In this document: positions 3,391-63,581 of the stretch, one piece after another
Layout of the letters: each line of letters begins with the position of its first letter
How positions within the stretch are numbered: position 1 is the first letter of the stretch
Source of the DNA: a virus
IMG/VR virus record: IMGVR_UViG_3300044632_001003
Span: 1 to 64,000 of that record
DNA: 64,000 nt
Strand: one strand, 5' to 3'
Position numbers and translations under genes: made by a program
Notes under the pieces: model-generated
Told to the model about the DNA's origin: nothing
Databases searched by the model: none
The model's input: the letters and a program-made list of their open reading frames with translations, nothing else

Positions 3391-5117
3391 TAGTCTTGTG
3401 CTGATGTGGACATCATACGAGAAAAACCTTTGACTTTCTCAAACCTTATGACACTTTCAAATTTGTCATGCAGTTCAGACTTATGGGAAATCACAAAGAT
3501 ATTAGCATCCTTAATGACATAACGGATAATCTTAAGAAACTCATCAGTTCCAAATCCATCAAGTGAGGAATCAAATACTTCATCCATAATCAGCAGATTG
3601 GTATTGACGGAATTTTTGACTCGGGCAACTTCTCTCCAGGTGAAGAGTAGGGCAAGGTCGATTCTCATTTTTTCACCCTCACTGAAAGAACTATAAGAAA
3701 AGTCTTCGTGAATGGGTGACTTTACCGTTTCGTTAAACTCTTCATCAAGATGGAAGTTAATATAAAAATCCATCATCTGAAGATAACGATTCACCTGCTG
3801 ATTTATGAACGGAAGATACTTCTTGATTATCTTCGTTTTAACGCCATCGTCCTTGAGTAAGGAATAGGCAAAATCGTAATAAACGATTTCTTCTTTTTTC
3901 TTTGAAAGGTCTTCGAATGTTTTTTGGAGATTGGTTTGAAATTCTTCTAACTTCTCATGCTCAGTATTTCTGTTTGCAAGGTTTTGGGTAATAGTTTGAA
4001 TTTCAGATTCAAGGTCTCGTATTTGTCTCTGGTTGAGGGAAATCCGAGTATTGTTTTGAGAAATCTCATGGTTGAGTTTCGTAATCTCCTTAGATAGAAC
4101 TGTGAATTGACGCTCTCGTTCCTGTTCTAACTTTATAGTCTCCTCAAGTTCCTGAAAACCTTTCTGGAGTTCCTTTGCCTTATTTTGAGCGTCTGCTATT
4201 CTATTTAACCGAAACTCTTCTTCTATAGTTTGAGTACAGGTAGGGCATACCGTATTTTCTGTGAAAAACTTATGTTCTTTCGTAATCACAGATACTTTCT
4301 GAGAAATCTTACCCTTTAGATTGTTAAGCTTTACTAACTTATCATCAGCACCAATGACTTCTTCCTGTTCCTTAGTGTAAGCAAAAATCTGCTCTTCGGT
4401 CTTAGAGTTTTCAGTCATATAAATGCCAACTTCGGCATCTAAATTGGCAATCTTTTCTTTATTGACATTAATATTGGCATTACCACGATTCTCAAGTTCC
4501 TCAATAAACTCCTGCTGCATCTTCATCTTATCCTTAAGAGTTTCTTTCTTAAGTTCAAGAGATTTAATCTGATCCTTTTTCTCACGAATCTTATCCTTAA
4601 TGAGATTATTCATCGCAGAGAAAATACGAATATCCAGAAGGTCCTCAATCACTTCCCGACGATTCGCAGTGGTCAATTGCATAAAGGGTACAAAAGTGCT
4701 AGAACCCAGAATCACAATCTGAGTAAAAGACTTGTAATTAACCTTGAGGATATTTTCTTCTAAAATACGTTGATTTGCTCTATCATCTGCTTCTTTATGC
4801 AGAGAAACGCCATTCACTTCAATGTCAAAAATATTTGGTTTGATGCCACGACGGACAAGATAGTCCCTACTATTCACAGAGAACTCAATCTCGACAAGAC
4901 AATCTTTCTCATTCGTAGTATTAACCAATTGAGGTTTGTTGATCTTACGAAATGGTTTATTAAAAAGTGCAAACGTTAGAGCATCAAGAACTGTCGATTT
5001 ACCAGCACCATTTGTACCAATAATCAAATTAGTATGATTTTTCTGAAAATCAATTTCGCTCCAATGATTTCCAGTGCTTAAAAAGTTTTTCCAACGAATT
5101 TTTTTAAAAGTTATCAT
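3390..5117 (-). CDS. 46: gp46 recombination endonuclease subunit (Rad50/SbcC-like ATPase)
   Basis: The protein has 575 residues (T4 gp46 has 560). The Walker A motif GTNGAGKST is at residues 34-42. Long coiled coils flank a zinc-hook CPTC near residue 293. The ABC signature SFSEGEKMR is near residue 470, followed by the Walker B segment LLIMDEVFDSSLD. With gp47 it forms the Mre11-Rad50-type complex that resects DNA ends for recombination-dependent replication and contributes to host DNA degradation. It sits in a gp47 / 89-aa protein / gp46 operon with 1-4 nt overlaps, and the start ATG at 5117 overlaps the end of the upstream gene. Confidence 0.95.
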   Translation of the reverse strand: MITFKKIRWKNFLSTGNHWSEIDFQKNHTNLIIGTNGAGKSTVLDALTFALFNKPFRKINKPQLVNTTNEKDCLVEIEFSVNSRDYLVRRGIKPNIFDIEVNGVSLHKEADDRANQRILEENILKVNYKSFTQIVILGSSTFVPFMQLTTANRREVIEDLLDIRIFSAMNNLIKDKIREKKDQIKSLELKKETLKDKMKMQQEFIEELENRGNANINVNKEKIANLDAEVGIYMTENSKTEEQIFAYTKEQEEVIGADDKLVKLNNLKGKISQKVSVITKEHKFFTENTVCPTCTQTIEEEFRLNRIADAQNKAKELQKGFQELEETIKLEQERERQFTVLSKEITKLNHEISQNNTRISLNQRQIRDLESEIQTITQNLANRNTEHEKLEEFQTNLQKTFEDLSKKKEEIVYYDFAYSLLKDDGVKTKIIKKYLPFINQQVNRYLQMMDFYINFHLDEEFNETVKSPIHEDFSYSSFSEGEKMRIDLALLFTWREVARVKNSVNTNLLIMDEVFDSSLDGFGTDEFLKIIRYVIKDANIFVISHKSELHDKFESVIRFEKVKGFSRMMSTSAQD

Positions 5118-9968: not shown

Positions 9969-11390
9969 TCACATTAGGTTGGTTACCTTTACTCTTCTGT
10001 AGTAACGGTTTGCGTTTGCCTTGAGGCGTCCTAGACCCGCAGTGGTTCCCTCAGCGAATGGGTTGGCAACTAGACCATAACGGGTCTTAAAGCCAATCTT
10101 AGGCTGGAAGGTGTTCTCACCAACGGCACGTACCATTTGGAGAGGAACATATGGGCAATAGAACAGACCAGCATCGTAAGGTGAAGAACCCTTATAACCG
10201 ACAACGTAGTACTGGTTAGCAGATACGTTTGCCGAATATGGGTCAATATATACACGATACTTGCCTTGGAGAACACCAGCGAAGGTGTTACCAGTGTCAT
10301 CAACGTTGAGGTTAGCGTTGAGTGCAGGGGTGTAATCAAGAACACCTGCCATGGTGAGTGCCGAAGCAACGTCAGCAGAGCAGAGGATCATGTTACCCTT
10401 GCCACGACGAGTTCTCTGGGCGATAGCGTTTGCATCACGCTCGATCTGGAAGATCAGACCCTTGAACTTCTCAACTGACCAACGACCGTTGGAGTCAACG
10501 TCGAGGTCGAAAGTACCAGCGGTTGCAGTATTAACAGCAGCACCAGACTCAGCAATCTTGTAGATGGTACGAATAACTTCGCGGTTGATTTCAGCAAGAA
10601 TCTCAGTTGAGAGAATGTTTGCTAATTCAGCCTCAGCATTCAGACCGTGGATTGCCTTGAGGTCTTGAGCGAGTTCTAGTGAGTACTCAGCTTTCAGAGC
10701 TCTTGACTTAGCGGTAACGGTGACTTTCTCGATCGAGAATGCCATCTGGTTGAACTGGTCGCCAGAGCCATCACCTAGGTCTTCTGCATAATCGGTACGC
10801 ATACCCTGACCAACAGGATATGTAGTAGCGGTTTGTGAACCTTCTGGGTTCAGGAGACCTGGGTTAGCAGCACTTGCGTGACCAGCGGTAGTACCGAAAC
10901 CAACGGAAGCACCGTCAGAACCAGCAACATAAAGACCAGACTCAAGATCGAATCCGTCGTTCTGACCTGAATATGCGGTATTTGCTTCGTCGAAGAATGC
11001 TTCGCCGTTAGCAGCAGCATCCATGGTTCCGTACTTGGAACGCATTGCGAAGATGAGTCCAGTAGGACCGTTCATTGGTTGAACGCCTGCGAGGTCATAA
11101 GCGACCAGGTTAGGCATTGAACGTCTGATTAGGGAGATCAGAACAGGGTCGAAACCTGCGACAGGTGAAGAAGCAGCACCACCAAAACCAGCATTACCAG
11201 TGCTTGAGAAGGTGTTTACGGTTGGAGCTTCATAGAGAAACTGACGCTCTTCGCGGAGAGCGGTCTCTTGGTTCTCTAGCAGGATAGCGGTAACAGCTCT
11301 ACGATGAGAATCTTTGATTGGATCAAGACCTTCGTAATCGAGAACTGGACTCCACTTCTCCTGCAATTGTTCTGCATTGAACATTTGCAT
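9969..11390 (-). CDS. 23: gp23 major capsid protein precursor
   Basis: The protein has 473 residues (T4 has 521). The N-terminal propeptide (MFNAEQLQEKWSPVLD) ends near FLYE|APTV at residues 51-58, which fits the gp21 protease consensus (L/I-x-E, then A/G/S), so cleavage after Glu54 is inferred. The mature part shows typical cyanophage gp23 sequence, including PNLVAYDLAGVQPMNGPTGL and the EKVTVTAKSRALKAEYSLEL segment. It forms the hexameric shell assembled around gp22. There is no NATAAATA motif directly upstream; AGAGGT just before AAACCCCC may serve as a ribosome binding site. A strong terminator follows. Confidence 0.97.
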   Translation of the reverse strand: MQMFNAEQLQEKWSPVLDYEGLDPIKDSHRRAVTAILLENQETALREERQFLYEAPTVNTFSSTGNAGFGGAASSPVAGFDPVLISLIRRSMPNLVAYDLAGVQPMNGPTGLIFAMRSKYGTMDAAANGEAFFDEANTAYSGQNDGFDLESGLYVAGSDGASVGFGTTAGHASAANPGLLNPEGSQTATTYPVGQGMRTDYAEDLGDGSGDQFNQMAFSIEKVTVTAKSRALKAEYSLELAQDLKAIHGLNAEAELANILSTEILAEINREVIRTIYKIAESGAAVNTATAGTFDLDVDSNGRWSVEKFKGLIFQIERDANAIAQRTRRGKGNMILCSADVASALTMAGVLDYTPALNANLNVDDTGNTFAGVLQGKYRVYIDPYSANVSANQYYVVGYKGSSPYDAGLFYCPYVPLQMVRAVGENTFQPKIGFKTRYGLVANPFAEGTTAGLGRLKANANRYYRRVKVTNLM

Positions 11391-55948: not shown

Positions 55949-56350
55949 TTATCTTGCTGCCTCTAATATAAATGTGTATTCTTGTGTTGGTATTTCTTGA
56001 CCAATAATATCAAAATTAACGGTTACTTCAAAAGCATTATCATCTGGTCTTGCTTCTACAATAACAACTAAATTAGAAATTCTTGGTTCATAATTAGAAA
56101 TTGCTTCTGCAATTTCATTTTCAAGAACTGATGCTGTACCTGCATCAACAAATTCAAATAATGTAGAATAAACGTCAGATCCAAAGAGAGAGTCAAAAAA
56201 TCTCTCTCCTTGGATCGTTTCAACAATATTTCTCACTGAGCGACGAATAGCAGCTTCATTTTTCAATACAGGCAAGTCCTTTGTAACAGGGTGAGGTTCA
56301 AAGGACAAACTTATATCTTTAAATCCGCGTGAAATGCGTTGAACTGCCAT
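55949..56350 (-). CDS. 25: gp25 baseplate wedge protein (lysozyme-like fold)
   Basis: The protein has 133 residues (T4 has 132). It shows FKDISLSFEPHPVTKDLPVL, NEAAIRRSVRNIVETIQGER and FFDSLFGSDVYSTLFEFVDA, including the EPR-like core signature (NYEPRISNLVVIVEARPDDN). gp25 starts sheath polymerisation at the baseplate. It is the first gene of the operon gp25-gp6-gp7 and follows an exact TATAAATA promoter. Confidence 0.96.
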   Translation of the reverse strand: MAVQRISRGFKDISLSFEPHPVTKDLPVLKNEAAIRRSVRNIVETIQGERFFDSLFGSDVYSTLFEFVDAGTASVLENEIAEAISNYEPRISNLVVIVEARPDDNAFEVTVNFDIIGQEIPTQEYTFILEAAR

Positions 56351-57900: not shown

Positions 57901-58656
57901 TCAGATGATGCGGGATTTTTCATGGCCAACACGAATACGAGGATCACACCAGATTTCAAATCCTGCCTCTTTTGCATCTAGACAGAATGAAACGTCCTCA
58001 CCGCACATATCCTGCACTTCTCCTGATTCGAAGACTTGCATCTTGGGTGCGAACCAGGGATACTTCATTTCAGGGTGCTCAAAGACACCGTGCTTAATCA
58101 GCAACCATCCGAAACCAGTGTAATCAACAGTGAAGGGACTACGACGCTTTTGAATGCTGTCAAGAGTTTCATGATTCATCACGCCACCATTGGAGCGGAA
58201 GTCATCTTCTTCCAGCCAATGTGCAACTGATGTAGTGTGACCATCTTCAGTACAATACCAACCAGCAGCGATATCTTGCTCCATCAGAACGAGTTGATAG
58301 AACTTCTCTGTATTGAAGACAATATCAGAGTCAATCCAAAGTTGCCAATCATATTGTAGTTTTCCATCCCAAGGAAGTTGGTCTGGACCACGAAGAACGT
58401 TTGCACCAAGACACTTACAGCGGGCGAAATTCACCATTGAACTGTAGTCTTGGGAAATTTGAATACTTGCACCTGCTTGTACAAGATCGAAACAGAGTTG
58501 TACAAATGCTTTCAGAAAGATATAAGATACCCCACGTCCAGGCAGACAAAAGACTACGGTTTTACCTCTGACTAGTTCTTTTGCCTTATCATAATCCCAC
58601 TCAGGTTCTTGAGACTTAACAGGTGTTTTTGCTTTTACTGTGAATCCTTTAGCCAT
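57901..58656 (-). CDS. GT-A-type glycosyltransferase
   Basis: The protein has 251 residues. A nucleotide-sugar-binding start (GKTVVFCLPGRGVSYIFLKA), a DxD-type motif in QLWIDSDIVFNTEKFYQLV near residue 110, and a C-terminal GEDVSFCLDAKEAGFEIWCD with acidic catalytic-type residues match small GT-A glycosyltransferases common in cyanophages. The target could be virion proteins, DNA or host surface sugars; none is indicated by context. It is the first gene after a sigma70-like promoter and so is probably early. Confidence 0.82.
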   Translation of the reverse strand: MAKGFTVKAKTPVKSQEPEWDYDKAKELVRGKTVVFCLPGRGVSYIFLKAFVQLCFDLVQAGASIQISQDYSSMVNFARCKCLGANVLRGPDQLPWDGKLQYDWQLWIDSDIVFNTEKFYQLVLMEQDIAAGWYCTEDGHTTSVAHWLEEDDFRSNGGVMNHETLDSIQKRRSPFTVDYTGFGWLLIKHGVFEHPEMKYPWFAPKMQVFESGEVQDMCGEDVSFCLDAKEAGFEIWCDPRIRVGHEKSRII

Positions 58657-59240: not shown

Positions 59241-59432
59241 TCACCGCCACTGCACCCCCCGCCCCTCATCAGCGTGTGCCTCAGCGTACTGGGCGGCGAT
59301 GGTGGTGGCGGGCAGTCCCCAGTGAATGTAGGAGGAGGGGCGGGAACCGTTCTTCAACTGGTCAGCGCGGGAGATCCATTTGATTTGGCGGGTCTCCAGG
59401 TCAGAGCACATGGCGAGCGGGAAGATGGTCAT
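59241..59432 (-). CDS. Small hypothetical protein (63 aa)
   Basis: Starts at the ATG at 59432, directly behind a leader element. It reads TIFPLAMCSDLETRQIKWIS, then SRPSSYIHWGLPATTIAAQY. No family recognised. Upstream in-frame codons exist but the leader marks this start. It is the last gene of the GC-rich block before the composition change. Confidence 0.6.
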   Translation of the reverse strand: MTIFPLAMCSDLETRQIKWISRADQLKNGSRPSSYIHWGLPATTIAAQYAEAHADEGRGVQWR

Positions 59433-59461
59433 GGGGTGTCGGTTGAACTGCTGATAGTGTA
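59433..59461 (-). promoter_or_regulatory. Promoter-leader element 1
   Basis: TACACT -10-like box (59456-59461) preceded by TGC (extended -10 look), then ATCAGCAGTTCAACCGACAC-CCC to the ATG. Divergent member of the repeated family. Confidence 0.55.
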
Positions 59462-59493
59462 GCACGTACCGTGGCACACGAACGGGGTAGGGG

Positions 59494-59682
59494 TCAATAC
59501 CCCAACCACACCAGGAACTCACCCGTATCGACAGGACCGAAGCGGGCGGTCACCCCATAGTCGGTGCGGAAGTCATCCCACAGACCGTGCTCCTTTGCTG
59601 CCTGGCAGGCGGTGCTCCAGGGGATGGTCCCGTTGCTGGGGTCGGTGCAGTTCCAGAGGATGTCGGAGAATGTGGCGTTCAT
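59494..59682 (-). CDS. Small hypothetical protein (62 aa)
   Basis: ATG at 59682 directly behind a leader element. It reads NATFSDILWNCTDPSNGTIP, then ACQAAKEHGLWDDFRTDYGV and ends VDTGEFLVWLGY. Trp-rich, acidic, cytosolic in appearance; no family recognised. Confidence 0.65.
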   Translation of the reverse strand: MNATFSDILWNCTDPSNGTIPWSTACQAAKEHGLWDDFRTDYGVTARFGPVDTGEFLVWLGY

Positions 59683-59713
59683 CGGGTCGGTTGGTTGAAC
59701 TGAGAGAATTGTA
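59683..59713 (-). promoter_or_regulatory. Promoter-leader element 2
   Basis: TGCTACAAT extended -10 (TACAAT at 59708-59713), then TCTCTCAGTTCAACC and AACCGACCCG to the ATG at 59682. Class with the GTTCAA core. Confidence 0.7.
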
Positions 59714-59721
59714 GCACGGGG

Positions 59722-60069
59722 TCAGACGGCACACCAGGCACAGTAGCGGTCGGCGTAGACCTGCTCCAGGCGGTACGCTTCGGATTCGCGGGCGTCGTCG
59801 TCGTGGTTGCCCTCCAGGGATTGGCGGCAGTGAATCAACTCATGGATCAGGGTGGTGACATACTCCAGATGGGGCAGGTCGCGCTCAACATCAATCAGGA
59901 ACTCATGAGCATCCTCCTGCTGCTGCCACCCCACCACACCCTCAGCGTTCAGGCGGCGATGATGGACGGTGACGGTAGCAGCGCCCAGGAGCGGTTCCTG
60001 ATCCAGCATGAAGCGATAGACCTGCTGGGCGAGGCGGGGGCGTTGCTTCTGTCCTGAGGTGAGCAGCAT
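59722..60069 (-). CDS. Small zinc-metallopeptidase-like protein (HELIH)
   Basis: The protein has 115 residues. An HELIH motif (near residues 76-80) in VTTLIHELIHCRQSLEGNHD is followed about 15 residues later by ESEAYRLEQVYADRYCAWC, giving the HExxH...E arrangement of minimal gluzincin or SprT-like domains. The N-terminal half (RPRLAQQVYRFMLDQEPLLG) is helical. The substrate is unknown; an attack on a host protein is possible but is speculation. It is the largest gene of the GC-rich block. Confidence 0.7.
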   Translation of the reverse strand: MLLTSGQKQRPRLAQQVYRFMLDQEPLLGAATVTVHHRRLNAEGVVGWQQQEDAHEFLIDVERDLPHLEYVTTLIHELIHCRQSLEGNHDDDARESEAYRLEQVYADRYCAWCAV

Positions 60070-60096
60070 GGGTCCGTTGCGGTTGAGAGTATTCTA
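60070..60096 (-). promoter_or_regulatory. Promoter-leader element 3
   Basis: TAGAAT (60091-60096), ACTCTCAACCGCAACGGACC-C, then the ATG at 60069. Class with the ACCGCAACGG core. Confidence 0.65.
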
Positions 60097-60113
60097 CAGG
60101 GTCGCCGCGGCCA

Positions 60114-60320
60114 TCAGGCGGGCAGGCAGTGCCAGTTGATCCATTGACCCTTGCTGCCCTTGCTGTTCCACAGGAGCGACAGAATCTCACGGCGCGATGC
60201 CACGTAGCGGTAGCAGGTCGTGGGGCTGTTGAACCAGCGGACGCGAACGCTGCCCGTGATGGGGTTGGCGCTCAGGCTCCAGACGCTGGTGGAATCGTTG
60301 CAGTTGATGGGGTAGCGCAT
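60114..60320 (-). CDS. KTSC-domain-like small protein (68 aa)
   Basis: ATG at 60320 behind a leader element. CNDSTSVWSLSANPITGSVR, CYRYVASRREILSLLWNSKG and QWINWHCLPA follow the pattern of the KTSC domain (sS.v..vgYd...g.l.v.f..g..Y.Y..v......ll.a.SkG.fin). KTSC domains have been linked to nucleic-acid-associated proteins but have no firm function. Frames extending upstream of the leader are not supported. Confidence 0.55.
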   Translation of the reverse strand: MRYPINCNDSTSVWSLSANPITGSVRVRWFNSPTTCYRYVASRREILSLLWNSKGSKGQWINWHCLPA

Positions 60321-60347
60321 CGGGTCGGTTGCTTTGAGAGTATTGTA
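60321..60347 (-). promoter_or_regulatory. Promoter-leader element 4
   Basis: TGCTACAAT extended -10 (TACAAT at 60342-60347), ACTCTCAAAGCAACCGACCC-G, then the ATG at 60320. Confidence 0.7.
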
Positions 60348-60360
60348 GCAGGTCGGGGGC

Positions 60361-60528
60361 TCACTGCCCGTTGGTGTAGTCTCCGATGATGATGCCCGTC
60401 TCATTGTGGCGGACCTGGGCGTAACCGAATTCCTCAGACAGGGAGAGGCAGAGGTCCCAGGCGCGGTCCTCATCGGTGGTGGTGTTCTCCCAGGGAGCGG
60501 AGGGGCAGATCACGTCGTAGCGGGTCAT
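60361..60528 (-). CDS. Small hypothetical protein (55 aa)
   Basis: It reads MTRYDVICPSAPWENTTTDE, then RAWDLCLSLSEEFGYAQVRH, ending IIIGDYTNGQ. It begins like several other genes here (MTRY/MRY/MALTRY), which may reflect a common translation-start context or distant paralogy. A compact alpha/beta unit with no recognised family. Confidence 0.65.
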   Translation of the reverse strand: MTRYDVICPSAPWENTTTDEDRAWDLCLSLSEEFGYAQVRHNETGIIIGDYTNGQ

Positions 60529-60557
60529 GGGTCGTTTGCTTGTGTCCCCATAGTATA
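60529..60557 (-). promoter_or_regulatory. Promoter-leader element 5 (divergent)
   Basis: TATACT box (60552-60557), then ATGGGGACACAAGCAAACG and ACCC to the ATG at 60528. Retains the spacing and the AACGACCC end but not the CTCTCA core. Confidence 0.55.
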
Positions 60558-60596
60558 AGACCCCCAGCGGCGAACCGTGGGGGGCAGTGGTCAGAT

Positions 60597-60740
60597 TCAG
60601 AATTGGATGGGTTCGGCAGTCGGTTCGGCGTCACCCTCCTGGGCGATGCGTTGGCCGTCTGCCAGTCCGTCCAGGATGCTCAGAATCTGGGAACCGTTGC
60701 GACCCTGGCGGAGCAGGGAGAGGGCAAGGTCAAGGGTCAT
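60597..60740 (-). CDS. Very small hypothetical protein (47 aa)
   Basis: It reads MTLDLALSLLRQGRNGSQIL, then SILDGLADGQRIAQEGDAEP. Helical, with an acidic tail. The pattern LSLLrqGrnGsqIL.iLD is common in small cyanophage frames. No function recognised. It is preceded by a TACAAT box at 60798-60803 with a longer leader of about 57 nt. Confidence 0.6.
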   Translation of the reverse strand: MTLDLALSLLRQGRNGSQILSILDGLADGQRIAQEGDAEPTAEPIQF

Positions 60741-60803
60741 GGGTCGTTTGAATCAGTGTGGTTTGGTGTGGGTGTCTTTCAGGGCGCACCCGCTCCCATT
60801 GTA
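60741..60803 (-). promoter_or_regulatory. Promoter with long leader (element 6, atypical)
   Basis: TACAAT at 60798-60803 overlaps the end of the upstream gene. The 57-nt leader lacks CTCTCA but still ends CAAACGACCC before the ATG, suggesting an insertion within an ancestral element. Confidence 0.45.
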
Positions 60804-60980
60804 TCAGGCAGCGATCAGCAGGTCATCCTCCCAGCGGGCAGTGGTCAGAATCTCATCGTAGATCCGATCGGCAACCTGATCAACGTAGCGGCGCTCATCC
60901 GCTTTCAGGATGGCAGCGCGGCACTGGGCGGCAATCTCATCAATGCTCAGGGCGCGGTCGGTGGCGGGGTTGTAGCGCAT
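60804..60980 (-). CDS. Small helical hypothetical protein (58 aa)
   Basis: It reads MRYNPATDRALSIDEIAAQC, then RYVDQVADRIYDEILTTARW. All-helical, acidic. No family recognised. The ATG is positioned by its leader element. Confidence 0.65.
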   Translation of the reverse strand: MRYNPATDRALSIDEIAAQCRAAILKADERRYVDQVADRIYDEILTTARWEDDLLIAA

Positions 60981-61008
60981 GGGGTTCGTTTGAACTGAGA
61001 ATATTGTA
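60981..61008 (-). promoter_or_regulatory. Promoter-leader element 7
   Basis: TACAAT (61003-61008), ATTCTCAGTTCAAACGAACC-CC, then the ATG at 60980. GTTCAA class. Confidence 0.7.
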
Positions 61009-61049
61009 GAGCAGTTTAGGGTCGGTGCTCAGGACATTGTGCCAGTGCC

Positions 61050-61232
61050 TCAGGCGGCACAGAGGGCGGATTCCAGGCAGACCTCCCGCACTTCCAGGCG
61101 GGAGTAATCATAGAGACCCCGCTGCAGCTCCAGTTCATAATCCTCAGCGGTGGAGCGGCAATCGAACAGGCGCAGGGAATCGAAGTCGGTGCCTTCATAA
61201 TCCCAACCACCGATCACAGCATAGACTTTCAT
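61050..61232 (-). CDS. Small conserved cyanophage-type protein (60 aa)
   Basis: It reads MKVYAVIGGWDYEGTDFDSL, RLFDCRSTAEDYELELQRGL, then VREVCLESALCAA. A beta-alpha-beta unit whose MKVYAViGGwdYEG..f.SLRLFDC pattern I associate with Synechococcus phage hypothetical proteins. This argues that the GC-rich block is phage DNA, not a host contaminant. Confidence 0.7.
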   Translation of the reverse strand: MKVYAVIGGWDYEGTDFDSLRLFDCRSTAEDYELELQRGLYDYSRLEVREVCLESALCAA

Positions 61233-61262
61233 GGGCGGGTCGTTTGAACTGAGAGTATTGTA
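61233..61262 (-). promoter_or_regulatory. Promoter-leader element 8
   Basis: TACAAT (61257-61262), ACTCTCAGTTCAAACGACCC-GCCC, then the ATG at 61232. GTTCAA class. Confidence 0.72.
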
Positions 61263-61305
61263 GGGGATGGAGGTGGGGGGTTGGTGCCCCCCGTGTGCCA
61301 GTGCC

Positions 61306-61482
61306 TCAATCGGCATAGAGGGAGATGAAGTCCTCCACAAACTCCCGCGCCTCATCGCCTGACATGCGGGAGATCATCTCACGGGCGACGGTCTCCCAGG
61401 AGAAGTCGTCTGCCAGGTCAAAGATGGCGACCCGTGCCTCAGAGGCGGAGAGTTCGGAGGCGGTGATCTGGGCGTAGGTCAT
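61306..61482 (-). CDS. Small helical protein (58 aa)
   Basis: It reads MTYAQITASELSASEARVAI, FDLADDFSWETVAREMISRM, then SGDEAREFVEDFISLYAD. A helical bundle-like acidic protein of the type seen in Synechococcus phages. No function recognised. Confidence 0.7.
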   Translation of the reverse strand: MTYAQITASELSASEARVAIFDLADDFSWETVAREMISRMSGDEAREFVEDFISLYAD

Positions 61483-61509
61483 GGGGTTGTCTGAACTGAG
61501 AGTATTGTA
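61483..61509 (-). promoter_or_regulatory. Promoter-leader element 9
   Basis: TACAAT (61504-61509), ACTCTCAGTTCAGACAACCC-C, then the ATG at 61482. GTTCAA class. Confidence 0.72.
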
Positions 61510-61522
61510 GGGGGTCAGGGGG

Positions 61523-61711
61523 TCAGAATCCTGCCTGCTGTTCCAGTTCCTCAAGTGTCACACGGTTCCAGGCACTGAACAGGGTAACGTGATCCAGGAC
61601 GCGGCCCATCGTCTCAGGACCAGTCTGGGGGTCGTCCAGGACCTGATCCATGCCAATGCTCATCAGGCGGTGGATCACGGCGTAGGTCTCCTGGCTGATG
61701 GTGATCTCCAT
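61523..61711 (-). CDS. Small helical hypothetical protein (62 aa)
   Basis: It reads MEITISQETYAVIHRLMSIG, MDQVLDDPQTGPETMGRVLD, then RVTLEELEQQAGF. The start follows its leader; upstream in-frame codons would cross the -10 box. No family recognised. Confidence 0.65.
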   Translation of the reverse strand: MEITISQETYAVIHRLMSIGMDQVLDDPQTGPETMGRVLDHVTLFSAWNRVTLEELEQQAGF

Positions 61712-61739
61712 AGGGTCCGTTGCGGTTGATCCTATTATA
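61712..61739 (-). promoter_or_regulatory. Promoter-leader element 10
   Basis: TATAAT (61734-61739), AGGATCAACCGCAACGGACC-CT, then the ATG at 61711. ACCGCAACGG class with a consensus -10. Confidence 0.68.
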
Positions 61740-61753
61740 GGGGGTGGCACCCC

Positions 61754-61993
61754 TCAGAATGCCACCAGTTGGTCCAGATCCCATTGTGGCACAGTCTGGA
61801 CGGTGCCCCCGCAGTTCTTCCGCAACCATGCGTTGATGTGCTTGCTGGTGGTGGCGCTCCACTGCTGGGCGGTGCGGATCCAACCCTTGCCAGGCACCAG
61901 GGCGGCAACGGGAGTCACGTAGGAGAACAGGATGCAGGTCCCGTCTGCCAGTTGAACCTCAGTCTGGTTGCTGCCGATCTGTTGAACGATCAT
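61754..61993 (-). CDS. DUF8033-like small protein (79 aa)
   Basis: It reads SNQTEVQLADGTCILFSYVT, PVAALVPGKGWIRTAQQWSA, then TTSKHINAWLRKNCGGTVQT. The pattern fSY.TPVAa...g......ws.TTSKHIN.WL matches a domain found in archaeal, cyanobacterial and viral small proteins (DUF8033 as I recall). Function unknown. The ATG is placed by its leader. Confidence 0.65.
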   Translation of the reverse strand: MIVQQIGSNQTEVQLADGTCILFSYVTPVAALVPGKGWIRTAQQWSATTSKHINAWLRKNCGGTVQTVPQWDLDQLVAF

Positions 61994-62021
61994 GGGGTTC
62001 CTTCGAACTGAGAGTATTGTA
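61994..62021 (-). promoter_or_regulatory. Promoter-leader element 11
   Basis: TGCTACAAT extended -10 (TACAAT at 62016-62021), ACTCTCAGTTCGAAGGAACC-CC, then the ATG at 61993. GTTCAA class. Confidence 0.72.
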
Positions 62022-62026
62022 GCAGG

Positions 62027-62242
62027 TCAGCGGCGGGCAGCGGCTAGCAGCAGGTCCAGTAGGACAACTGCCACAACCGCCTTCCAAAAGCCCAGGGCGG
62101 TGATTCCAAACCACCCCAGCACCAGCACCAGGAGCCACGCTTTCAGGGCAACGACGCCAGCGACGCCAACGATCAGGATACCTGCCAGAGCCACCATCTG
62201 CGGGGTGCTGAGGTCCTCAATCCAGGGGTAACGCTTGCTCAT
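62027..62242 (-). CDS. Small membrane protein, two helices (71 aa)
   Basis: Two hydrophobic segments, MVALAGILIVGVAGVVALKA and a second one running through LLVLVLGWFGITALG, WKAVVAVVLLDLLLAAARR, would place it in the inner membrane. The N-terminus (SKRYPWIEDLSTPQ) is soluble. Could be a holin-like or envelope-modifying protein, but nothing specific is recognised and it is far from any lysis gene. Confidence 0.65.
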   Translation of the reverse strand: MSKRYPWIEDLSTPQMVALAGILIVGVAGVVALKAWLLVLVLGWFGITALGFWKAVVAVVLLDLLLAAARR

Positions 62243-62269
62243 GGGTGCCTTGCGGTTGAGAGTATTGTA
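62243..62269 (-). promoter_or_regulatory. Promoter-leader element 12
   Basis: TACAAT (62264-62269), ACTCTCAACCGCAAGGCACC-C, then the ATG at 62242. ACCGCAACGG class. Confidence 0.72.
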
Positions 62270-62311
62270 AGGGGTCAGCGGTGCCCTTTGGGGCAGGGAG
62301 TGGACAGTGCC

Positions 62312-62470
62312 TCAGGTGTCCTCATCCTCCCCCAGAATGAACCCATCAACCCATCCTGCTGTGTATCCGTCATCTTTGGTGAACAGGCGGATCTTAAGAA
62401 GTTTGGCGATTGCAAAGGGCAAACCGATCACCAGGGCTCCAGGGATGAGAATGGCAAGCAGTTCGGTCAT
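62312..62470 (-). CDS. Small single-helix membrane protein (52 aa)
   Basis: A hydrophobic N-terminal segment (LLAILIPGALVIGLPFAIAK) is followed by a basic KLLKIR stop-transfer-like stretch and an acidic tail (GWVDGFILGEDEDT). No family recognised. The ATG is placed by its leader. Confidence 0.62.
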   Translation of the reverse strand: MTELLAILIPGALVIGLPFAIAKLLKIRLFTKDDGYTAGWVDGFILGEDEDT

Positions 62471-62498
62471 GGGGTTCCTTTGAACTGAGAGTATTGTA
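62471..62498 (-). promoter_or_regulatory. Promoter-leader element 13
   Basis: TACAAT (62493-62498), ACTCTCAGTTCAAAGGAACC-CC, then the ATG at 62470. GTTCAA class. Confidence 0.72.
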
Positions 62499-62503
62499 GC
62501 GGG

Positions 62504-62671
62504 TCAGCGGGCGATCAGGTCGCCTGCAGTGTACAGTGCCTGAGCTGTCACATGGCGGACGGGGCGAATCGGTTCCCATAGTATCCAGAGCAGCAGAGCG
62601 GCAACGGTCAGGCGAAGCATGGTAGCACGGTGGAACTCAGGGGAACGGGAACGGGTCAGGGAGCGGATCAT
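62504..62671 (-). CDS. Small membrane-type protein (55 aa), coupled
   Basis: The ATG at 62671 overlaps the upstream stop as ATGA. The sequence starts basic (IRSLTRSRSPEFHRAT), then MLRLTVAALLLWILWEPIRP is hydrophobic. An alternative ATG at 62620 would give 38 residues starting MLRLTV. It has no leader element, unlike most neighbours, which supports translational coupling. Confidence 0.55.
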   Translation of the reverse strand: MIRSLTRSRSPEFHRATMLRLTVAALLLWILWEPIRPVRHVTAQALYTAGDLIAR

Positions 62672-62811
62672 GCGATGTGAGCAGGGGAACCACAGGAACG
62701 GTAGAATTCTACCATACGTTCCGCCTCTGCCAGGGTGGGGAACCATTGCGACCGCCACTCACAGTGGTTGTAGGGGACCTGGTAGCGGACTTCGTAGCGG
62801 GTCAGTGCCAT
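62668..62811 (-). CDS. Small hypothetical protein (47 aa)
   Basis: It reads MALTRYEVRYQVPYNHCEWR, SQWFPTLAEAERMVEFYRSC, then GSPAHIA. A beta-beta-alpha unit with a pattern (RYEVRyqvp....eWrSqWFpTlaEAErMv.FYRSCG) familiar from Synechococcus phage small proteins. Just upstream the leader ends CTTTCAACTGACCC, a partial match to the repeated leader, but no clear -10 is seen. Confidence 0.65.
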   Translation of the reverse strand: MALTRYEVRYQVPYNHCEWRSQWFPTLAEAERMVEFYRSCGSPAHIA

Positions 62812-62968
62812 GGGTCAGTTGAAAGACTTTGGGGTGGCGGGTCCGTGACCTCCCGCCTACGGGGTCAAGGGGTCTGTGGGGTTGCCCCCGCCGTTCCTCC
62901 CCTTGTTGAACATAGTATGGCACGGCAGAGGGGGCAGGTCTATGGGGTGTGTGCCACATTCTGAACTG

Positions 62969-63553
62969 TCACAGCACCTCTTTGCCGAACTTGCCACACA
63001 GGTAGAATGCCATTCCTTTATCTTTCAGGGTGCAACCTGCAAAGGTGAGAGGAACATAGGCGCCGTTAGTTTTAGATGCTTTGGTGCGAATTTGCAGCAG
63101 TCCGTTAGGACCAGTGATGGTGCTCAGTTGCTCACCAGCATTGAACTTAGCACGAATGGTATCACAAATGTGGTTGTAATCCTCCGCCAGTTCCTGATAG
63201 TGTTCGGGGTGAGTTTCAGGGTTCAGAACCTCAGTGCCCACATAATCGTTGGAGCGGGTGAAACCAACGTAGATGGTTTGAGAGAGTTTCTCACCGACTT
63301 TGCTGTCAGCGAAACTAACACTATCCTCCAGAATCTCAGAGAGGCAATGCTTCAGTTGGGTGACAGCGATAGACTCACCAACCGTGAAGGTCTTCAGTTC
63401 TCCATCCACCAGATCTTTCAGGTTGGAACTGTTAGGAATGCCCAGGGCAGTTTCAATCAGTTGCCCACGGGATCCTTTGTTCTTCCCAGGTTTGGCGAAC
63501 GCAGCGAAGTTAGTTACCTTCAGTTGGGCAGCGACTTGCAGGGTGTTGAGCAT
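62969..63553 (-). CDS. MutH/Sau3AI-family endonuclease-like protein
   Basis: The protein has 194 residues from the ATG at 63553. KNKGSRGQLIETALGIPNSS followed by NLKDLVDGELKTFTVGESIA reproduces the MutH/Sau3AI core: Glu in the LIE helix, Asp in KDLVD and Glu-x-Lys in GELKTF. SQTIYVGFTRSNDYVGTE follows, as in the family. MutH nicks hemimethylated GATC and Sau3AI cuts GATC. A phage copy could attack host DNA or act in repair. A TATACT box and a leader ending AACGCACCCG precede the ATG. Confidence 0.6.
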   Translation of the reverse strand: MLNTLQVAAQLKVTNFAAFAKPGKNKGSRGQLIETALGIPNSSNLKDLVDGELKTFTVGESIAVTQLKHCLSEILEDSVSFADSKVGEKLSQTIYVGFTRSNDYVGTEVLNPETHPEHYQELAEDYNHICDTIRAKFNAGEQLSTITGPNGLLQIRTKASKTNGAYVPLTFAGCTLKDKGMAFYLCGKFGKEVL

Positions 63554-63581
63554 CGGGTGCGTTGCTGATGAGATTAGTATA
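63554..63581 (-). promoter_or_regulatory. Promoter-leader element 14 (outlier copy)
   Basis: TATACT (63576-63581), AATCTCATCAGCAACGCACC-CG, then the ATG at 63553. Same layout as the block elements; ATCTCA and GCAACGxACCC recall the ACCGCAACGG class. Confidence 0.58.

Follow-up and report, generated by a model that had tools for sequence, protein, structure and literature searches.

A repeated sigma-70-like promoter-leader element and the putative exchange of one-gene cassettes in a small-gene island of a T4-like cyanophage

Promoter-early stem-loops (PeSLs) of T4-like phages are said to be composites of a sigma-70-type promoter and a stem-loop that lie between small non-essential genes. They reportedly occupy a hyperplastic region, in which recombination between copies shuffles the genes and exchange between neighbouring ones gives mini-circles. 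The question addressed here is by what means T4-like cyanophages acquire, lose and express their numerous small orphan genes. We analyzed the first 64 kb (the window) of IMG/VR virus record IMGVR_UViG_3300044632_001003, which is 205,009 bp long. A GC-rich island in this window carries an array of small genes, most of them preceded by a repeated element of 27-32 nucleotides (nt) that consists of a -10 box, the hexamer CTCTCA and a leader free of a Shine-Dalgarno (SD) sequence, and ends at the ATG. Probably, this host-sigma-70-type promoter and its SD-less leader make up a one-gene cassette that is exchanged by recombination in the promoter core. Reaction-centre genes of the psbA/psbD type occur in the record and in three related ones of more than 200 kb. 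The record also encodes gp25 and gp6 of the T4 type and was therefore identified as a T4-like cyanophage.

The interval between gp46 and gp25 has been described as a "hot spot" of small genes in cyanophages (Sullivan 2010; PMC3037559); the passages of that paper considered here contain neither a promoter-leader element nor an exchange mechanism for it. For cyanophage S-PM2, the passages considered of another paper (PMC4503421) describe the "ORFanage", a dispensable orphan-gene cluster, and judge PeSLs to be sparse and a PeSL mechanism unlikely for another S-PM2 cluster (5-17 kb). These passages do not mention the S-PM2 island described below. Intergenic repeats with tested promoter activity are described for the halovirus HF2 (PMC8707807). 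No description of the present element was found in the open literature, including a search by motif letters.

An alignment of 290 unique copies, anchored at the -10 box, gave the consensus CCNCYGACCTGC-TACAAT-A/T-CTCTCA, followed by GTTCAAACGACC or ACCGCAACGGACC and last by CCG/C-ATG; the core consensus is TACAATNCTCTCA. In this comparison, conservation begins at about -12, counted from the -10 box, and extends through the ATG, and information content is low in the coding sequence on either side. This agrees with the preliminary description of the array, which held that conservation covers the promoter and the whole leader but not the coding sequences. TGn, the extended -10 motif, precedes the box in 194 of the 290 unique copies and at 139 of 262 junctions in another set. 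A -35-like hexamer with correct spacing was present at 45 of the 262 junctions, compared to 2.6 in shuffles, and was found at 13 of 139 junctions with TGn versus 32 of 123 without it (p=0.0005). Such a trade-off between the -35 and the extended -10 is as expected for real sigma-70 promoters, and the element resembles a sigma-70 promoter of the host, presumably an active one. These results lend no support to the earlier suggestion of a signal for a phage-specific factor. Conservation of CTCTCA and the leader does exceed what sigma-70 requires, as it would if the element were the site of a phage transcription factor (a middle- or late-type promoter) and not an early host-type promoter. That possibility is nevertheless improbable given the trade-off, the lack of the T4 late box TATAAATA in the consensus, and the existence of marine relatives with canonical TATAAT boxes, often behind stem-loops. 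No strongly conserved hexamer lies near -30 of the alignment, the place of a MotA box, although no dedicated scan for this box was made.

With the transcription start that we infer, at the A of CTCTCA, the leader would have a mean length of 18 nt. It is 43% C and 32% A. An SD-like tetramer occurs in 12 of 262 leaders versus 11 of 27 long open reading frames elsewhere in the window, in line with the earlier claim of a leader under 20 nt without an SD sequence. A structured RNA was considered and rejected, since there was no Rfam match and the leaders fold more weakly than shuffles. Each element would therefore provide a sigma-70-type, presumably early, promoter and a short, A/C-rich, unstructured leader that is probably translated independently of an SD sequence, and a single copy would suffice to express a single small gene. 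Two styles of junction were seen. In the first, the promoter is fused to the stop codon of the preceding gene (TGA-YCTGC-TACAAT) and a hairpin is rare; in the second, the stop codon is followed by a GC-rich stem-loop and then the promoter. GC stems of at least 5 bp occur at 91% of junctions with a stop-to-promoter gap of at least 25 nt (31% in shuffles) and at 7% of those where the promoter abuts the stop. U-tracts are few in the freshwater copies, and a stem with a T-run is present in some marine copies.

All copies in the window lie on the minus strand. The ten reported previously were found at their given positions, as follows (weight-matrix scores in bits): 59683-59713 (TACAATTCTCTCAGTTCAACC..., 34.6), ahead of gene 59494-59682; 60070-60096 (TAGAATACTCTCAACCGCAACGGACCC, 28.4), ahead of gene 59722-60069; 60321-60347 (TACAATACTCTCAAAGCAACCGACCCG with TGC ahead of it, 42.9), ahead of gene 60114-60320; 60981-61008 (23.7), ahead of gene 60804-60980; 61233-61262 (41.4), with the stem-loop GGGGGGCACCAACCCCCC in front, ahead of gene 61050-61232; 61483-61509 (45.9), ahead of gene 61306-61482; 61712-61739, the variant TATAATAGGATCAACCGCAACGGACCCT, ahead of gene 61523-61711; 61994-62021 (46.9), ahead of gene 61754-61993; 62243-62269 (39.5), ahead of gene 62027-62242; and 62471-62498 (51.4), ahead of gene 62312-62470. 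The earlier observation thus stood and had been understated. By sequence, we added the variants TACACTATCAGCAGTTCAACCGACACCCC (59433-59461, gene 59241-59432) and TATACTATGGGGACACAAGCAAACGACCC (60529-60557, gene 60361-60528), the latter right behind a GC-rich stem-loop, a decayed copy CACACTGATTCAAACGACCC (60741-60760, gene 60597-60740) that falls under the matrix threshold, and an outlying relative TATACTAATCTCATCAGCAACGCACCCG (63554-63581, 9.8 bits) before gene 62969-63553 (phrog_15364). The product of gene 59722-60069 is a small HELIH protein with a weak match to a putative metallopeptidase family (DUF6782); its relatives occur in 41 IMG/VR loci, mostly preceded by a ACCGCAACGG leader.

The element is, by all appearances, virus-specific. 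Genome-wide statements for the 205-kb record rest on pattern searches: TACAATACTCTCAGTTCAAACG with up to 3 mismatches gave six sites, every one inside the island, and its reversed-pattern control gave 0. Across IMG/VR, leader types TACAATACTCTCAGTTCAA and TACWATWCTCTCAACCGCAAC were found in 63 and 85 stretches, respectively. Derived from 266 elements, a 38-nt weight matrix (threshold at least 6 bits) found 906 sites across the fetched loci, which are partly redundant and mostly picked by motif, versus 0 in locally shuffled copies. Elements were also carried by 36 of 38 loci picked by similarity to the island's metallopeptidase-like protein and not by motif. The shuffling control that had been proposed as a refutation of this array thus failed to refute it. 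If the elements were a captured host regulon, that is, copies of a cyanobacterial promoter and leader, their -10 box and extended -10 of host sigma-70 type would be accounted for, and the island's GC content does resemble that of GC-rich picocyanobacteria. However, TACAATWCTCTCAGTTCAM, which is close to the first leader-type pattern, had one exact match in 84,980 bacterial and archaeal species genomes (257 Gb). This lone match is in a proteobacterial bin and looks like chance by its context. A host origin was rejected on this result, and we give it very little credence.

Comparison of about 170 loci yielded 481 distinct gene-element pairs, which fall into 68 protein families (median 62 amino acids) and 81 non-redundant gene orders. 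The locus itself is fixed, with gp25 on its downstream side (93 of 93 loci) and DUF6267 on its upstream side (93 of 100). Orientation is uniform within each locus: none of 879 elements lies on the other strand, and the "divergent" copies of the preliminary description differ in sequence only. Relative gene order was retained in 91.5% of comparisons (68% for shuffles), suggesting that genes come and go at matching places and do not move at random. Array ends tend to retain the same gene families, and one gene family may carry either leader type in different phages.

The joins between genes show where homology changes. In junction pairs with only the downstream gene in common, identity is at baseline upstream of the -10 box and rises at +12; in pairs with only the upstream gene in common, it is high through -1 and has dropped to baseline by +14. 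This switch is absent from controls in which leader length or gap was matched. The first pattern was seen in 59 pairs (at least 90% identity downstream, 28% upstream) and the reverse in 37, in which homology ends at +17 in the median. Since some contigs may be related, the pairs are not independent of each other; the numbers describe a pattern and are not a formal test. There are also nine distinct single-gene insertion/deletion triples (A-B-C versus A-C) with a hybrid element at the join, such as 6-23-8 (locus L142) versus 6-8 (L146) and 28-13-17 (L029) versus 28-17 (L160). The junction profiles and the hybrid elements place the crossover zone at the 13-nt core and its immediate surroundings, so the apparent crossovers are in or near TACAATNCTCTCA. 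We propose that element copies ahead of unrelated genes supply runs of common sequence at gene borders. Recombination in the -10/CTCTCA core, either between co-infecting phages or within a genome, would remove, insert or swap single genes, and each join would rebuild a working promoter. The earlier idea of a portable cassette by which small genes can be added one at a time is supported by the order shuffling, the core-switching profiles and the clean insertion/deletion pairs. Its unit, promoter plus leader plus gene, is not. On the alignments, the putative mobile unit is the leader, the gene and the upstream half of the next promoter, with the exchange boundary inside the promoter core.

Another possible explanation is selection only: genes would arrive by illegitimate recombination, the best promoter-leader would be kept or evolve, and the element would have no role in recombination. 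The sharpest conservation is indeed at functional promoter positions. On the other hand, the hybrid joins are seamless and in the core, the leader tracks the downstream gene while the -35 half tracks the upstream gene, two leader types that differ strongly have both been kept, and the conserved relative order is expected for exchange at matching sites. We therefore regard selection alone as unlikely, and homologous joining as the better inference. Several observations weigh against exchange in the core. The cultured phage S-T4 holds the gene families and no recognisable repeated element, which also fits selection only and means that the genes can be kept without the element. At 13-17 nt, the most-shared stretch is short for RecA-type recombination; certain pairs of copies do share at least 30 nt. 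Concerted evolution within a genome is weak, as identity is 0.645 within loci and 0.630 between them, and strong within-genome homogenisation was rejected on this marginal effect. Finally, the core switch could also reflect illegitimate joins of which selection kept those with a functional promoter. One tentative extension of the core-exchange model, which we hold to be rather doubtful, is that recombination is concentrated at the early-promoter core itself. Early transcription would open the DNA for strand exchange in recombination-dependent replication, and the promoter would be the joint that keeps a population-wide pool of one-gene cassettes interchangeable.

One gene per repeat, a single orientation and single-cassette insertion/deletion would also be produced by a site-specific system, in which the core is a recombinase attachment site and the island an integron-like cassette array. 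This candidate was rejected, since neither a tyrosine integrase nor a resolvase was found in the four records of more than 200 kb; the search for PF00589 was positive in all control genomes. In addition, the core consensus holds no inverted repeat or conserved hairpin and no attC-type structured site, and the tendency of array ends to keep their families, with relative order kept, is unlike insertion at one end. We consider such a system highly improbable.

Among cultured phages, S-PM2 has an island of 50-61% GC that spans about 21.5-25 kb and lies immediately upstream of gp25-gp6. The small genes of this island fall into the families seen in freshwater phages, with 40-88% identity, and it holds several identical or near-identical element copies, such as three of G(C/T)AGGATAAC(C/T)TCAGTTCAAACGAAACGACCCATG and two of CTAGACTTCTCTCAGTTCAACCGACACACAGACCCATG. 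Gene families are also shared by S-WAM2 and S-T4, at or near the locus, with few or no recognisable copies of the element. The S-PM2d record retains the element island at about 21.5-25 kb. RNA sequencing of phosphate-starved cells places one element-led S-PM2 gene, p241, among those up-regulated at 3 h (PMC10976474), indicating that at least one element-led gene is transcribed. The same paper prints CCTATACT GAT CTCAGTTC as the candidate Pho box of another gene; this is the element core in S-PM2 (about 3480-3520 of locus L176), and the match may not reflect PhoB binding. Beyond the island and in marine cyanophages, a TATAATNACTTCAGTTCAAAC element lies ahead of cobS in S-SM2, Bellamy and S-SCSM1, and a close form of it ahead of a peptidase gene in Sf-FR1. 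A stem-loop directly precedes this element in three of the four phages (Sf-FR1 and two of the three with cobS). The promoter-leader thus also occurs outside the island, and these phages carry it widely. What may be a second class of promoter-leader, TATACTAAGG...GGGA...ACCC-ATG, was noted ahead of small cyanophage genes (74455-74487 of contig G000:C1; 2775 and 3768 of the S-RSM4 locus).

The island (59241-62811, minus strand) contains about 15 small genes of 47-115 amino acids, most without known function. Twelve have an element reaching the ATG, the decayed copy precedes one, and no clear element precedes the two at the upstream end. These two (62504-62811) overlap by ATGA and may be co-translated. 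GC content is 29-44% across nearly the whole window and 59-61% at 59-63 kb, in a genome of roughly 35%. Over 59241-63500 the GC content is about 60%, and the S-PM2 island contrasts likewise with its genome. A second stretch of raised GC (0.495) lies at 10001-11000. Downstream, the island adjoins a conserved 251-amino-acid gene (phrog_1574; 57901-58656, minus strand), and the gp25 baseplate wedge gene (55949-56350, minus strand) is the fixed landmark. In a blastn search of the whole island against cultured phages, a conserved flanking gene was the sole match. A MutH-like reading of gene 62969-63553, which came from a motif and the annotation of one phage record, was dropped because a query lacking the first Met gave no Pfam or PDB support.

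The joint between these cassettes can be defined nearly at base resolution, and whole single-gene cassettes appear to be exchanged across many freshwater phages. Since cultured S-PM2 has the same island, it offers a testable system. The element may also serve as a short SD-less cyanobacterial expression element, and its motif can locate small, presumably early phage genes that annotation often misses and that are candidates for host takeover.

Compared with known systems, the island shares its position and its small hypothetical genes upstream of gp25 with the gp46-gp25 hot spot. The ORFanage likewise consists of orphan genes in a cyanomyovirus but is another S-PM2 stretch than the element island. 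HF2 also has repeated intergenic sequences, but is an archaeal virus and unrelated. Like an integron, the island is a one-gene cassette array in one orientation; it differs in having no integrase, no structured attachment site, and an apparent promoter of its own for each cassette. PeSLs are the closest likeness. Both have a sigma-70-like promoter between small genes, here recognized by its -10, extended -10 and -35 trade-off; both lie in a hyperplastic region of a T4-like phage, here the DUF6267-gp25 locus with its many gene orders; and in both, genes would be shuffled by recombination between copies, here suggested by the junction profiles and the insertion/deletion triples. Unlike PeSLs, the present element remains conserved across its SD-less leader as far as the ATG, serves one gene at a time and switches in the -10/CTCTCA core, and its stem-loop seems optional, being mostly missing where the promoter abuts the stop codon.

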